NCBI GenBank assembly: GCA_040218145.1
Contig: JAVJQK010000122.1
Span: 186,001-250,000 of the forward strand
Reading direction: 5' to 3'
Length of the DNA: 64,000 nt
From: Sandaracinaceae bacterium
GTDB taxonomy: Bacteria; Myxococcota_A; Polyangia; Polyangiales; Sandaracinaceae
Made by a program: the position numbers and the translations under genes. The notes under the pieces were generated by a model. The model was not told the origin of the DNA. It saw nothing but the letters and a program-made list of their open reading frames with translations, and did no database searches. Below are positions 34,865 to 56,305 of the stretch, piece by piece. The stretch's first letter is position 1, and each line of letters opens with the position of its first letter.

Positions 34865-37279
<2,415 letters not shown>

Positions 37280-50893: not shown

Positions 50894-52894
50894 ATGGACG
50901 CGAGGACGAGAGGTGATAGTCTCCGCCCGATGGTCCGCGCGCGGATCGGGGCTTCCCCCGCGAACCCAACCCCGACGCACGGGGAGACGCGAGAGACGTC
51001 GGGATGGGCCATGCTCATGTCCCCGGTCTGTCGCTGGGTGGACGAGCACATCGCGCCCCTCTTCTCGGCGTCGTCCCTGAAGGACGGCGCGGCGGTCGCG
51101 TGGATCGCCCTCGCGCTCGGTGGCTGCGGGGACGCACACCGCGTCGAGGTGGAGGGCACCGTGCGTGACGGACGGACGGGTGCGCCAGTCGCGCACGCGA
51201 CCGTGTCCACCGATGACGGACGCCACGCGGAGACAGATGAGGAGGGCGTCTTCGTCCTCGAGCTCGACGAGGGTGAAGCCACCCTCACCGCGGAGGCCCC
51301 CGGTCGATGCCCCCGAACCGAGCGGGTCGACGTGCGACCGGGGATGGCGCCGCTGCGCCTCGTCGTGTTCGACGCGCTCGAGGTCGACGCGCCCTCGCAC
51401 GTCGGGTTCGATGAGTCGATCACGCTCGAGGCACGCGCGCGATGTGACGCGGGCGCGATCACCTGGACGCAGACCGGTGGGCCCAGGCTCGGGGACCGCA
51501 TGCGAGCCGAAGACGGGCGGCTCCACGTCCGGACGCACGCGCGGCGATCGCTTCGAGACGAGCGCGACGACACGCGGGCGGACTACCGCTTCGAGGCGCG
51601 CGCCGCGCTCCGGCCCACGAGGAGCCCGGGGGCGCGACGCGGCGTGACTCGCGTGGCCGCGCGCCGGGTCCGCGTGACCGCGAGCTCCGCGCGCGCGGAC
51701 GGCGGCCGTGGACGGACCGATCCTCGCGTCGACTACGAGCGCTTCACGGCCTCATCGATCGAGCCCTTCGCGGACCCGTCAACCTACCTTCCCCAAGCCC
51801 GAGCGGCATATGCGGCCGACGCGTCGACGCCTGTCGGATCACCCACAGACCCGAGCCTCGTCGTAGACGATCGCTGTTCGAGTTGTCACGCGGTGACACC
51901 TTCTCTCCTGCTGGAGGAGTGGCTCGGCGCGCCGATGAGTCGAACCACGATCGAGCGCGACGAGCGCGATCCGGCGCAGCGCGCCGAGTGCGCTGGATGC
52001 CATGTGCCCGGAGTCAGCAGCTTCGAGCCGAGCGCCTCTCGGACCTCGGAGACCTTGCGTTGCGACATGTGTCACGGCCTCGATCACACCGCTCCCGAAA
52101 CGCAGCGAGGGTTCCAGCAACACGGCCTCGACGCACATCCCCTCCCTCTCTACGATGCGACAGTTCTGATTGCAGACGCTCCGACACGGCACCTGGGGAG
52201 CGGCGCGGTCTGCGCGAGCTGCCATCGGAGCGGCGTGGCGAACGCGGAGGCCTCCGACAGGGCTCCTCACGCGCCGCAGAGCGATCTTCTGGTCGGTCGC
52301 GGAGCGCGCGGCATAGCTCCACTCGATGACGGCGCGCACCGACACATCGCGGACAGCTGCGCGCGTTGTCACATGACGCGCCCCGACGCGGCCGATGCCT
52401 CCTACGGTCGGACGGGTGGACACTCGTTCGCGGTCCGCGCGCCGGGATCGGCGTCCATCTCCATGGCGGCGTGCGCTCCATGTCACGGAGACGAGGCGCC
52501 CGAGCGAATCGGCGCGCGTGACTGGAACGGCGACGGCGAGGAGGGCACCGTCCTCGAGGAGCACGACGCGGCGATCGCCCGACTGGAGCGTCAATTCAGC
52601 TCGCGAGTATCTGCGGAGACCATTCGCGATCTCTGCGGACGCGTCGCCGTGGACGTCTCCGAGCGAGATGCGCGGCTGCACCTCGTGGACGCCGAGGGCG
52701 CGCTGCTCGGCGACTGCGACGATGATGGCGAGTTCGTCGGCGAGACAGCGGTCACGGTCGACGCGCTCCCGGGCTGGCTCCGAGACGTCGCGTGGGACCT
52801 CTCGCTCTTGCGCGCCGACGGATCGCGCGGCCTGCACAACCCCCGCTACACCTTCCGCGTCCTCCGCGCGGCGCGGGCTCGCCTGACCGAATAG
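50894..52894 (+). CDS. Six-haem cytochrome c with N-terminal carboxypeptidase-regulatory-like domain (about 666 aa)
   Basis: Six CxxCH motifs are present after about residue 330: CSSCH, CAGCH, CDMCH, CASCH, CARCH and CAPCH. Spacing resembles multihaem proteins of respiration or nitrite/sulfite-type chemistry. Before them, VEVEGTVRDGRTGAPVAHATVS is a carboxypeptidase-regulatory/Ig-like domain. A hydrophobic stretch ending LALGGC looks like a lipobox but lies about 75 residues from the first ATG, so the start is uncertain; ATGs at 51011 or 51017 are alternatives. Periplasmic or surface electron transfer is likely. Neighbours give no partner. Confidence 0.75.
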   Translation: MDARTRGDSLRPMVRARIGASPANPTPTHGETRETSGWAMLMSPVCRWVDEHIAPLFSASSLKDGAAVAWIALALGGCGDAHRVEVEGTVRDGRTGAPVAHATVSTDDGRHAETDEEGVFVLELDEGEATLTAEAPGRCPRTERVDVRPGMAPLRLVVFDALEVDAPSHVGFDESITLEARARCDAGAITWTQTGGPRLGDRMRAEDGRLHVRTHARRSLRDERDDTRADYRFEARAALRPTRSPGARRGVTRVAARRVRVTASSARADGGRGRTDPRVDYERFTASSIEPFADPSTYLPQARAAYAADASTPVGSPTDPSLVVDDRCSSCHAVTPSLLLEEWLGAPMSRTTIERDERDPAQRAECAGCHVPGVSSFEPSASRTSETLRCDMCHGLDHTAPETQRGFQQHGLDAHPLPLYDATVLIADAPTRHLGSGAVCASCHRSGVANAEASDRAPHAPQSDLLVGRGARGIAPLDDGAHRHIADSCARCHMTRPDAADASYGRTGGHSFAVRAPGSASISMAACAPCHGDEAPERIGARDWNGDGEEGTVLEEHDAAIARLERQFSSRVSAETIRDLCGRVAVDVSERDARLHLVDAEGALLGDCDDDGEFVGETAVTVDALPGWLRDVAWDLSLLRADGSRGLHNPRYTFRVLRAARARLTE

Positions 52895-52922: not shown

Positions 52923-53351
52923 ATGCTCGTGGCGATGCCGGTGATCTGGATCCTCGTCGGCGGCCTGGTCGCCGCGCTCGTGCTGGTCGCGCTCTCGCGC
53001 GCCAACGAGATCTTCTGCGTGTCGATACGCAACGGCCGAAGCCTGGTCGTGCGCGGCCACGTCCCACCGTCGGTGATGCGAGAGATCGCGGAGATCGCGC
53101 GCCGCGCCAAGCTGCAGCGAGCGACCGTCAAGGCCGTCAAGCAGGGCGGTCGTCCGCGCCTCGTCACCTCCGGCGTCGACGAGGGGACGACCCAGCGCCT
53201 CCGCAACGCGGTGGGCGCGCAGGGCTTCGGTCAGCTCAAGGCGAGCCAACAGGTCGCTGGCGCTGGCGCCGGCCGAAGCGGCCTGGGCCGAAATCTGGGT
53301 CAGTGGCTGGGCATCGCCTGGCTCGCCTGGCTGCTCGGCGGCCGCGACTGA
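52923..53351 (+). CDS. DUF3634-like membrane-anchored protein (142 aa)
   Basis: A membrane helix (VIWILVGGLVAALVLVAL) is followed by ANEIFCVSIRNGRSLVVRGHVPPSVMREIAEI, the hallmark of DUF3634. A second part contains RLRNAVGAQGFGQLKAS, then a Gly-rich C-terminal tail with a helix (GIAWLAWLLGGRD). The function of this family is unknown. The stop overlaps the convergent Cys-repeat gene by 52 bases. Confidence 0.7.
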   Translation: MLVAMPVIWILVGGLVAALVLVALSRANEIFCVSIRNGRSLVVRGHVPPSVMREIAEIARRAKLQRATVKAVKQGGRPRLVTSGVDEGTTQRLRNAVGAQGFGQLKASQQVAGAGAGRSGLGRNLGQWLGIAWLAWLLGGRD

Positions 53352-53773
53352 CCGAGCGCGCCGCAGTCGTGGCGGCAGAACGCCTGGAGGCTCGGATCGC
53401 GGACAGAGTCGCAGCGCCCCTCACAGAGCGCCACGAAGTCCGGATCGTGGGCGAGCTGACATTGCCCGAGGCAGAGCGCGCGCAGGTCGACGTGCTGCAC
53501 CGCGCCGCAGTCCCCTCCGCACATCGCGCGCGTGTCCGGGTCGCGAACCCGCTCACAACGTCCACGGCAGAAGGCGCGCAGATCGGGGTCGCGCACTGCG
53601 CCGCAGTCGTGCCGACACAGCGCGCGCTGATCCGCGCTCGACGCCTCCCGCACGTGCGCCACCGCGGCCACCAGCGTCAGCTCGTCCACCCACGCCGACG
53701 ACGTCGTCGCGATCAGACCGCACCCGAGCACGGCCGCGAGCCGAAGCCACCGTTCCACGGCGGAGAGGTACAC
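53300..53773 (-). CDS. 16-residue CxxxC-repeat secreted protein (157 aa)
   Basis: GTG at 53773 begins a signal-like segment (ERWLRLAAVLGCGLIATTSSA); GTG at 53758 is an alternative start. The mature part has five complete and one partial 16-residue repeats of the form A-L-C-x3-C-x2-V-x-DPDLR, for example ALCRHDCGAVRDPDLR and AFCRGRCERVRDPDTR. All units keep both cysteines. Such a regular array suggests a superhelical or disulfide-stapled solenoid. It overlaps the DUF3634-like gene tail-to-tail. No family recognised. Confidence 0.6.
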   Translation of the reverse strand: MYLSAVERWLRLAAVLGCGLIATTSSAWVDELTLVAAVAHVREASSADQRALCRHDCGAVRDPDLRAFCRGRCERVRDPDTRAMCGGDCGAVQHVDLRALCLGQCQLAHDPDFVALCEGRCDSVRDPSLQAFCRHDCGALGQSRPPSSQASQAMPSH

Positions 53774-53803: not shown

Positions 53804-54643
53804 TCAAGGCAGGATCGACTTCGCGCGTAGGTAGCCCTGGTCGACCATCGCGGCCATCTGGGCGGGGTCGAACTCGAGCGGGTCGGGCGCGAGCGAGGAC
53901 GCGGGGCGGAAGGCGGTCAGGTCGACGCCGCGCTCCTGCATGAGGGCGAGGGTGTCGTCGACCTGCTGGGTGGCCATCAGGAGGATGGCGCGGCGGAGCG
54001 TGTAGTTGAGCACGTCGGTGCCCGGCTCGTTCGGGAAGCGGCGCGTGATGGGGGGCCGGGCGCCCGGCGCGGCGAAGGCGGCGCACGCGTAGATCTTGGT
54101 GGCTCCCGCGTCGAGCGCGGCCTGCACGGGGAGCATCTGCATGATGCCGCCGTCGAGGTAGTCGTGCGCGCCGATCTGGATGGTCGGCATGAGCGCGGGC
54201 TGGCACGCCGAGGCGAGGACGAAGGTCTTGAGGCGCTCGAGCGAGTCGGCCTGCGTGCCGTACTCCACCGCGCCGGTCTGCATGTTGGTCGACGCGATGC
54301 GCAGCTGGACGCCGCGGTCGCGGATCTTCTGGAGGCGCCGCGGGGTGAAGTAGGTGTCGATGAGCTCGCGCAGCGGCTCGACGCTGTTGACGTAGCCGTG
54401 GAGGATCAGGCCCGCGTCGCCCACGAGCGATCGGTGCAGCACGTCGCGCGTCTGCACGTTCGTGTAGAGGTCGCTCAGGAGCCCCGCCTCACCCGTGGCC
54501 GCGAGCACGGCGGCGAGCGCGCCGGTCGAGGTCCCCGTGACCACGTCGGGGCGGATGCCCTTGTCGACCACGAGCCAGCGCAGGACGCCAACGCTGAAGG
54601 CGCCGAGAGAGCCGCCGCCGCCGAGCACGAATCCGTTGGTCAT
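53804..54643 (-). CDS. Patatin-like phospholipase (279 aa)
   Basis: ATG at 54643 follows GGAGGA. Motifs of the patatin fold: GGGGSLGAF near 9-17 (oxyanion hole), GTSTG near 42-46 (catalytic Ser), and YLDGGIMQ near 158-165 (Asp of the dyad). No signal peptide, so it is probably cytosolic or secreted by another route. Family members hydrolyse phospholipids or acylglycerols. It is coupled to the upstream lipoprotein gene (TGATG overlap). Confidence 0.9.
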   Translation of the reverse strand: MTNGFVLGGGGSLGAFSVGVLRWLVVDKGIRPDVVTGTSTGALAAVLAATGEAGLLSDLYTNVQTRDVLHRSLVGDAGLILHGYVNSVEPLRELIDTYFTPRRLQKIRDRGVQLRIASTNMQTGAVEYGTQADSLERLKTFVLASACQPALMPTIQIGAHDYLDGGIMQMLPVQAALDAGATKIYACAAFAAPGARPPITRRFPNEPGTDVLNYTLRRAILLMATQQVDDTLALMQERGVDLTAFRPASSLAPDPLEFDPAQMAAMVDQGYLRAKSILP

Positions 54644-55122
54644 CAGTGTCCTCCCTCGCTCAGCTCGCAGGACGCGCGGGCGAAGGCGCGGGTGACGCCA
54701 CGCGCGTCGCAGGTCTCCTCCGGCTGTCCGTCGCAGTCCCGGTCGGCCGGCGCGAAGTCGTCGTGCGCGCGGGTCAGCGCCGCGTCGAGCGATCCGTCGA
54801 TGTCGGTGAAGAGGGCCGGGTGATCGGGCGCGGGGAGCGCGACCAGGGCGGCGCGGAGCGGCGTCATCGCGCACTCGCTCGTGGGCGGGCTCGCGTCACA
54901 GGCCGCCTGGTAGGTGGCCACGAGGTCCGCGAAGCTCGCCTTCTCCGCCGCCGAGGCCTCACGCAGCTCGGCCCGCGCCGGGACGACGACCAGCGACGCG
55001 ATCGAGTCGGTGTAGCTCGGGTCGGGGTCCGGGAGCCCGGGCTCGGGGCAGCTCACCGAGGGCCCGCCGCAGCCGAACGAGATCAGGGCGAGGAGCGCGA
55101 GGCGTGTCAGGGTCCGATGCAC
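54643..55122 (-). CDS. Lipoprotein of unknown function (159 aa)
   Basis: ATG at 55122 gives MHRTLTRLALLALISFGC (C18), a lipoprotein signal. The mature part has a Pro-rich linker (PEPGLPDPDPSYTD), then helical sequence (SAAEKASFADLVATYQAA) and an acidic stretch with cysteines (DRDCDGQPEETCDARGV). Its stop overlaps the patatin start by one base (TGATG), so it is probably co-translated. No family recognised. Confidence 0.65.
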   Translation of the reverse strand: MHRTLTRLALLALISFGCGGPSVSCPEPGLPDPDPSYTDSIASLVVVPARAELREASAAEKASFADLVATYQAACDASPPTSECAMTPLRAALVALPAPDHPALFTDIDGSLDAALTRAHDDFAPADRDCDGQPEETCDARGVTRAFARASCELSEGGH

Positions 55123-55168: not shown

Positions 55169-56305
55169 GTGCCATCCTCCGGACGCGTGATCCCGCCGCC
55201 CACCGACCTGACCCTCCCCCGCGCGGGCGTCCCGACGCTCCGGGCCGCGCTCTCGGCCGCGCTGAAGCGGCTGGCGCAGGATCTCGGGCGCCTCCCGCTC
55301 GCGTCCCTGTCGCCCGACGCGAGGGCGACGCTCACCCAGGTGCTGCGCGCGACCAAGGCCGAGCTGGCGCGCGAGCCAGGGCGCGTCTTCGGGGTGCTCC
55401 GCCGACCGAACGTGGGCGCGGCGCTGCGGGTGCTCCGCGAACGCGCCGACGACGCGATCGCGAGGCAGCTCGCCGCGACCCTCGCGGTGGAGCTGGCCGC
55501 GGCCGGCGCCGAGCTCCCCGCGCTGCGCTTCGAGGGGCTGCCGCCCGAGATCGTGTGTCTGGGCGCGCGGCGGGCGCTGCCGGGGGGCGACGCGACTCTC
55601 GCGCGGGGGGAATGGAGTGGCCGCGCGATCATGGACCACCCGAGCCCCTTCACGGAGATCGAGGGCGGGATCGTCTTGGCCGAGATCGACGACAACCCGC
55701 TGTCCATGCTCGAGGCGCACCCCGACAAGCTCGGGAACGCGATCGATCTCGGCGGCCGCGACGCGGAGGCGTGGGCGGACGCCCTGCGGGAGGCGCTGGG
55801 CCTGATCGCCGAGCACACGCCCGCGCTCCGCGAGACCATCGCGCTGCTCGTGCACCAGATCGTCCCGGTGGGCTACGACGCCGAGCAGCACCTGAGCGCG
55901 AGCTATCGCGAGGCGCTCGGCACGCTCTACCTCACGCTGCACCCGAGCCCGCTGACGATGGCCGAGGCGCTGATCCACGAGACCCAGCACAACGTGCTCA
56001 ACGCGGTGTTCGAGCTGGACCCGCTGCTCGAGAACGCCTTCTCGCCGCTCTTCTCCTCGCCGGTTCGGCCCGATCCGCGCCCGCTCCACGGCGTCCTCCT
56101 CGCGGTGCACGCCTTCCTCCCCGTGGCGGAGCTCCACCGCCGGATGGCCGAGGCCGGGCACCCGCTCTCGAAGACGCCCGAGTTCGCCCGGCGCGTGGAG
56201 CGGGTGCGCGAGGGGAACCGGGAGGGCGCGGCGGTGCTGCTGGAGAACGCGGCGCCGACCGCGATCGGGCGCGCGCTGCTCGACGAGATCGCGCGCCTCG
56301 TGTGA
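55169..56305 (+). CDS. HEXXH-motif putative peptide-modifying protein, RiPP-type (378 aa)
   Basis: GTG at 55169 is used; GTG at 55187 is also in frame. A long helical region is followed near 265-285 by MAEALIHETQHNVLNAVFEL. That HExxH with the adjacent QHxxL is the mark of the TIGR04267 (mod_HExxH) family, found with ribosomally made, modified peptides, some members being iron/2-oxoglutarate enzymes rather than proteases. No clear leader/core precursor was found nearby. It precedes an SDR gene by 10 bases, so the operon may encode a peptide or small-molecule pathway. Assignment is by motif only. Confidence 0.65.
   Translation: MPSSGRVIPPPTDLTLPRAGVPTLRAALSAALKRLAQDLGRLPLASLSPDARATLTQVLRATKAELAREPGRVFGVLRRPNVGAALRVLRERADDAIARQLAATLAVELAAAGAELPALRFEGLPPEIVCLGARRALPGGDATLARGEWSGRAIMDHPSPFTEIEGGIVLAEIDDNPLSMLEAHPDKLGNAIDLGGRDAEAWADALREALGLIAEHTPALRETIALLVHQIVPVGYDAEQHLSASYREALGTLYLTLHPSPLTMAEALIHETQHNVLNAVFELDPLLENAFSPLFSSPVRPDPRPLHGVLLAVHAFLPVAELHRRMAEAGHPLSKTPEFARRVERVREGNREGAAVLLENAAPTAIGRALLDEIARLV

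Follow-up and report, generated by a model that had tools for sequence, protein, structure and literature searches.

The repeat gene and its surroundings

On the minus strand of the window, by which we mean the whole stretch of 64,000 nucleotides from the Sandaracinaceae contig JAVJQK010000122.1 that was analysed, an open reading frame at 53300-53773 with a GTG start encodes a protein of 157 amino acids that carries a cysteine array, the sole array of its kind in these 64 kb. The genome holding the gene comprises 11 Mb. The features of the gene and its immediate neighbours are the following:

53300..53773, minus strand: whole gene, probably exported six-unit cysteine-repeat protein, 157 aa
53693..53773, minus strand: probable signal peptide VYLSAVERWLRLAAVLGCGLIATTSSA, assigned by eye
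53642..53686, minus strand: N-terminal helix DELTLVAAVAHVREA, predicted as helical in the AlphaFold2 model
53615..53638, minus strand: N-terminal half unit SADQRALC with C53, the putative partner of C137
53567..53605, minus strand: unit 1, CGAVRDPDLRAFC, C57-C69
53519..53557, minus strand: unit 2, CERVRDPDTRAMC, C73-C85
53471..53509, minus strand: unit 3, CGAVQHVDLRALC, C89-C101
53423..53461, minus strand: unit 4, CQLAHDPDFVALC, C105-C117
53375..53413, minus strand: unit 5, CDSVRDPSLQAFC, C121-C133
53354..53365, minus strand: C-terminal half unit CGAL with C137, which would complete a sixth unit together with the N-terminal half
53804..54643, minus strand: patatin-like phospholipase, 30 bp upstream of the repeat gene, probably on a common transcript
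54643..55122, minus strand: putative lipoprotein, first gene of the presumed operon; its stop overlaps the patatin start (TGATG)
55169-56302, plus strand: stand-alone aKG-HExxH peptide beta-hydroxylase (TIGR04267, E 2e-31), 1.4 kb from the repeat gene

The array cysteines are residues 53, 57, 69, 73, 85, 89, 101, 105, 117, 121, 133 and 137, and their spacings alternate between 4 and 12 without exception, giving six CxxxC motifs with a period of exactly 16 residues. Among 200,000 shuffles of the protein, 3 produced an array even as long as three units. An earlier note, written from the DNA sequence, had described a regular repeat with both cysteines kept in every unit, and this description is borne out by the exact spacing. 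Its consensus, A-[LFM]-C-x3-C-x2-V-x-DPDLR, captures the repeat but is loose in the last element, since DPDLR occurs once in the array and other units read DPDTR, HVDLR, DPDFV or DPSLQ. Similarly, its count of five full units and a partial sixth translates, in the natural register of the protein, into five complete C-x11-C units with a half unit at either end, the C-terminal one followed by a 17-residue tail.

The premise that the frame is translated is supported by homologues in other genera, 32-40% identical to the window protein, which all carry the identical cysteine array, by a GC content by codon position of 0.75/0.56/0.87, and by the finding that four of the five differences from the same-species copy fall at third positions (few differences, and weak evidence alone). 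A nearly identical copy of the gene, with flanks 98.5% identical, is present in a Sandaracinaceae metagenome assembly. A candidate N-terminal signal sequence is visible by eye in nearly all members of the family, and the protein is probably exported, by means of a putative Sec signal peptide; VLGC in this region could alternatively be a lipobox. The surface location proposed earlier agrees with this as far as probable export is concerned.

The repeat gene appears to be the last in an operon, after the genes for the lipoprotein and the patatin-like phospholipase. In 20 homologue neighbourhoods, no conserved partner gene was found and the patatin-like phospholipase was not conserved; the sole recurrent unrelated ORFs were found in three other loci. 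The hydroxylase has two further copies elsewhere in the genome, one of them under the family cut-off, and no precursor peptide was identified for the copy at 55169-56302. On the other side, a DUF3634 protein (52923-53351, plus strand) is convergent with the repeat gene, and 50894-52894 (plus strand) encodes a multihaem cytochrome-like protein in which a CarboxypepD-regulatory domain is combined with six CXXCH haem motifs. A 129-bp tandem repeat of 3.5 copies at 35018-35479 encodes a different Cys-rich repeat, of NCGGCG type, and similar repeats adjoin the homologue in locus L010.

Relatives and three arrangements of the array

A protein search of 183 genomes of the order gave matches in ten genera (one of them weak), and the nine distinct arrays aligned first all share the six-fold array. 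Profile searches matched 46 of 377 genomes of the phylum, 13 of 63 and 15 of 52 genomes of two other groups, and 21 of 317 genomes of the window's class, Polyangia, where a search for the repeat had been suggested. Homologues are thus spread across Myxococcota and Pseudomonas plasmids; outside Myxococcota, with limited sampling there, relatives were seen on plasmids only. The plasmid search matched about 100 records, for the most part large plasmids, and the relatives include a six-unit Pseudomonas protein with 21-residue units as well as three-unit proteins. Four of the latter (L048-L051) lie on large Pseudomonas plasmids, two of them (L048, L049) without a listed gene in the plasmid table. 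Viral contigs yielded no relatives, and apparent phage homologues were rejected as spurious matches to low-complexity Ala/Ser arrays.

The six-unit sequences fall into three classes. The permuted class, to which the window protein belongs, comprises 12 sequences from 11 species, all from the window's own taxonomic class; its arrays open with the latter half of a unit (DxRxxC) and end on the first half (CGSI), which coincides with the protein end within one residue in 9 of the 12. The unpermuted class, whose 16 sequences come exclusively from the phylum's other classes, has six complete C-x11-C units joined by linkers of three residues and followed by a short basic tail. The long-linker class (19 sequences, one of them the plasmid protein from Pseudomonas) has six units of 21-25 residues, with linkers of 10 residues, 12 in the middle in many members, and 8 in the plasmid protein. 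Between-unit identity in this class is 0.69 at an offset of three and 0.53-0.54 at offsets of one and two, a three-unit super-period, as if a three-unit module had been duplicated. The irregular spacing that the earlier note had named as refuting is found among homologues for CxxxC, with linkers of 3, 8, 10 or 12 residues, and tells against the CxxxC staple but not against the repeat itself.

The unit number is nearly always six, as in these 12 permuted, 16 unpermuted and 19 long-linker sequences; five, three or one full units occur in a few lineages. A paralogue in two genomes of one genus (L015/L061) consists of one full unit and both half units and has four cysteines in alpha-hairpinin spacing, apparently as an internally shortened copy. 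In two divergent relatives of family f18 (L065, L068), the linkers vary and the N-terminal half unit contains no cysteine.

The family is widespread and without description in the databases searched, in agreement with the earlier statement that no named family could be recognised. Neither Pfam, NCBIfam and PADLOC profiles nor PDB sequences gave a credible match for the window protein, and a literature search found no description of the family. A relative at L025 scored 22.0 bits against zf-DPOE of Pfam (cut-off 21), and PHROGs gave single-member weak matches only, the best an unnamed one at 1.6e-05; both were judged to reflect short cysteine stretches and the former to be trivial. A match of Pseudomonas elastase to the long-linker profile (E 0.025) covers one short stretch and was rejected as chance.

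Cysteine pairing and proposed closure of the array

The distance C-x11-C is constant in all three classes, and the losses of cysteines follow it. Among the 96 units of the 16 unpermuted proteins, 19 lack both the first and the second cysteine and no unit lacks just one of the two, with replacement by Y and G in 18 and by T and A in one (Fisher p 2e-20, a value inflated by the kinship of the sequences). At least two separate losses, one in unit 3 and one in unit 5, are required to explain this pattern, since in L032 only unit 5 is affected. In contrast, the 80 CxxxC neighbours in the same proteins include none that lost both cysteines and 38 that lost exactly one. Pairing by C-x11-C in 53 proteins leaves no orphan cysteine in 41 and the first and last only in 12, whereas pairing by CxxxC leaves orphans in 41. 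From the constant distance, the coupled losses and the orphan counts we conclude that the C-x11-C pair is the repeat unit and the likely disulfide, and that the eye-catching CxxxC motif would be merely the junction of two units. The disulfide staple suggested earlier is therefore probably real, but moves from CxxxC to C-x11-C. A metal staple, the other suggestion, is unsupported, because the coupled replacement of C by Y and of C by G resembles a lost disulfide.

In the permuted class, C53 and C137 at the two ends have no C-x11-C partner, yet they are invariant in 11 of 11 species. Relatives from family f18 that lack the final half unit also lack the first cysteine: it is V or L in three loci with five full units (L057-L059) and absent in four with three full units (L062, L063, L066, L067). 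The two end cysteines thus covary, in the way expected of partners, which suggests that the ends of the array pair and close it. Together with the fixation of six units in two registers, this covariation makes a closed six-membered ring, its split unit sealed by C53-C137, the simplest reading. The open solenoid of the earlier note fits less well with the nearly constant count of six, the half-unit permutation and the covarying ends. Closure would not be essential to the fold, given that five-, three- and one-unit relatives exist.

AlphaFold2, run with nine sequences, gave block pLDDT values of 91-95 over residues 31-130 of the window protein, modelled as helices of 8 residues that each end at a cysteine, alternating with helical turns of 3 residues at the following cysteine. 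One unpermuted member was modelled at a pLDDT of 53 with a strand-like pattern, and the helical fold is thus predicted from a single model together with the sequence. Foldseek and VIA gave no match to the model in the PDB, and Foldseek gave none in BFVD. In the permuted class, unit position 10 (Y, N, H, A, D and others) shows an identity of 0.83 within a protein and 0.15 between proteins, and the same holds for positions 2, 4, 13 and 15, where residues agree along a protein but differ from one protein to another. The contrast is milder for synonymous codons, which are alike at 0.745 within a gene and 0.644 between genes. This uniformity of faces could stem from selection for equal faces or from an old repeat amplification that purifying selection then maintained; since both accounts imply that the repeated surface matters, multivalent binding may tentatively be proposed.

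On balance, we favour, at somewhat better than even chances, an exported six-unit ring of disulfide-clamped mini-hairpins. The exported core would repeat six times a mini-hairpin of 13 residues with the pattern C-G-x-[IV]-x-[DN]-x-D-[LMT]-R-x-x-C, in which a one-turn helix bearing the first cysteine is followed by a loop and a short Asp-capped helix ending in the second. In the window's class, the register would be shifted by half a unit and the sixth unit divided between both ends, so that a C53-C137 disulfide would close the array into a ring, like the shared last blade of a beta-propeller. More speculatively, oxidation in the periplasm would yield a rigid, protease-resistant ring with six near-identical faces outward, which might serve in the cell envelope or its surroundings as a scaffold or multivalent binding module.

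The covariation of the end cysteines would be explained equally well if the split sixth unit were completed between molecules, C137 pairing with C53 of the next chain so that disulfides join the molecules head to tail into a fibre or surface layer; this would also account for the uniform faces seen along the array. However, a polymer does not need six units, which are fixed in both the permuted and the unpermuted class, and the unpermuted relatives with their complete units could not polymerise in this way; we regard this alternative as unlikely. A secreted defence or competition peptide, acting on a membrane or enzyme target like plant alpha-hairpinins but in a six-fold array, appears less probable still. 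The similar helix-loop-helix cysteine arrangement of these peptides (PMC7191063), the exactly four such cysteines in the L015/L061 paralogue and the sporadic, neighbour-less distribution speak for it, but there is no alpha-hairpinin sequence match, the 20 neighbourhoods hold no conserved immunity or transport genes, and the array is near neutral (pI ~6.0).

A CxxxC-stapled or metal-binding open solenoid gains from the permuted class alone, where CxxxC pairing leaves no orphan, but the long-linker class does not preserve this spacing, and the coupled losses and orphan counts given above make it very improbable. The hydroxylase 1.4 kb away and the repeated Asp/Asn residues as potential hydroxylation targets would fit a multi-core RiPP precursor, a reading that is largely refuted, and to which we give hardly any credence: no HExxH gene lies near any homologue outside the species, such a gene is absent from 11 of 20 genomes, and in the other genera it is located on a different contig.

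Significance and comparison with known systems

The exported ring, if correct, would be a very small closed repeat scaffold, naturally occurring and locked by disulfides, of use in protein design, and could serve to test hypotheses on the evolution of ring closure and of circular permutation. The family itself would add undescribed and widespread repeat proteins, probably exported, with an unusually clean internal logic: the C-x11-C pair and the count of six stay fixed, whatever the unit length, linker and register. A new fold class, defined as a single-chain six-membered ring of disulfide-clamped mini-hairpins with natural circularly permuted forms and terminal disulfide closure, is possible, but we rate it at somewhat less than an even chance. 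A function as a multivalent envelope binding module would be in line with the uniform faces.

Plant alpha-hairpinins are helix-loop-helix peptides of the form C1xxxC2-x(n)-C3xxxC4 with C2-C3 as the inner bond (PMC7191063). The short helix-loop-helix, predicted here, is shared, as probably is the inner disulfide, and CxxxC-x11-CxxxC spacing runs throughout the short-linker classes, and these only. In contrast to alpha-hairpinins, the array is bacterial, has six tandem units with probably one disulfide per hairpin, and has no detected sequence similarity to them. Their two-disulfide pattern (C1-C4, C2-C3) disagrees with the coupled losses and orphan counts, which support one C-x11-C bond per unit; only the four-Cys paralogue L015/L061, whose pattern matches, could follow it fully. 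In the small Tims, twin CX3C helical hairpins are arranged six around a ring in the six-bladed alpha-propeller of the Tim9-Tim10 hexamer (PMC3759932). CX3C hairpins, predicted to be helical here, are common to both, and six around a ring would be if the array closes, but there six separate chains with long helices carry two disulfides each, whereas here one chain would carry one disulfide per unit. No homology was found, with no small Tim match in the PDB by sequence or by Foldseek.

Beetle antifreeze proteins are disulfide-stapled solenoids, beta in structure and open, with coils of about 12 residues; like them, the family has a short Cys-containing tandem repeat and is probably exported, but it is predicted to be helical. 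Beta-propellers have a fixed unit number, permuted relatives and a shared last blade built from N- and C-terminal pieces (Velcro closure). The family resembles them in its fixed unit number and its permuted relatives, would do so in a last unit formed from both termini, and differs in showing no homology, in its predicted helical units and in a closure that would be made by a disulfide.
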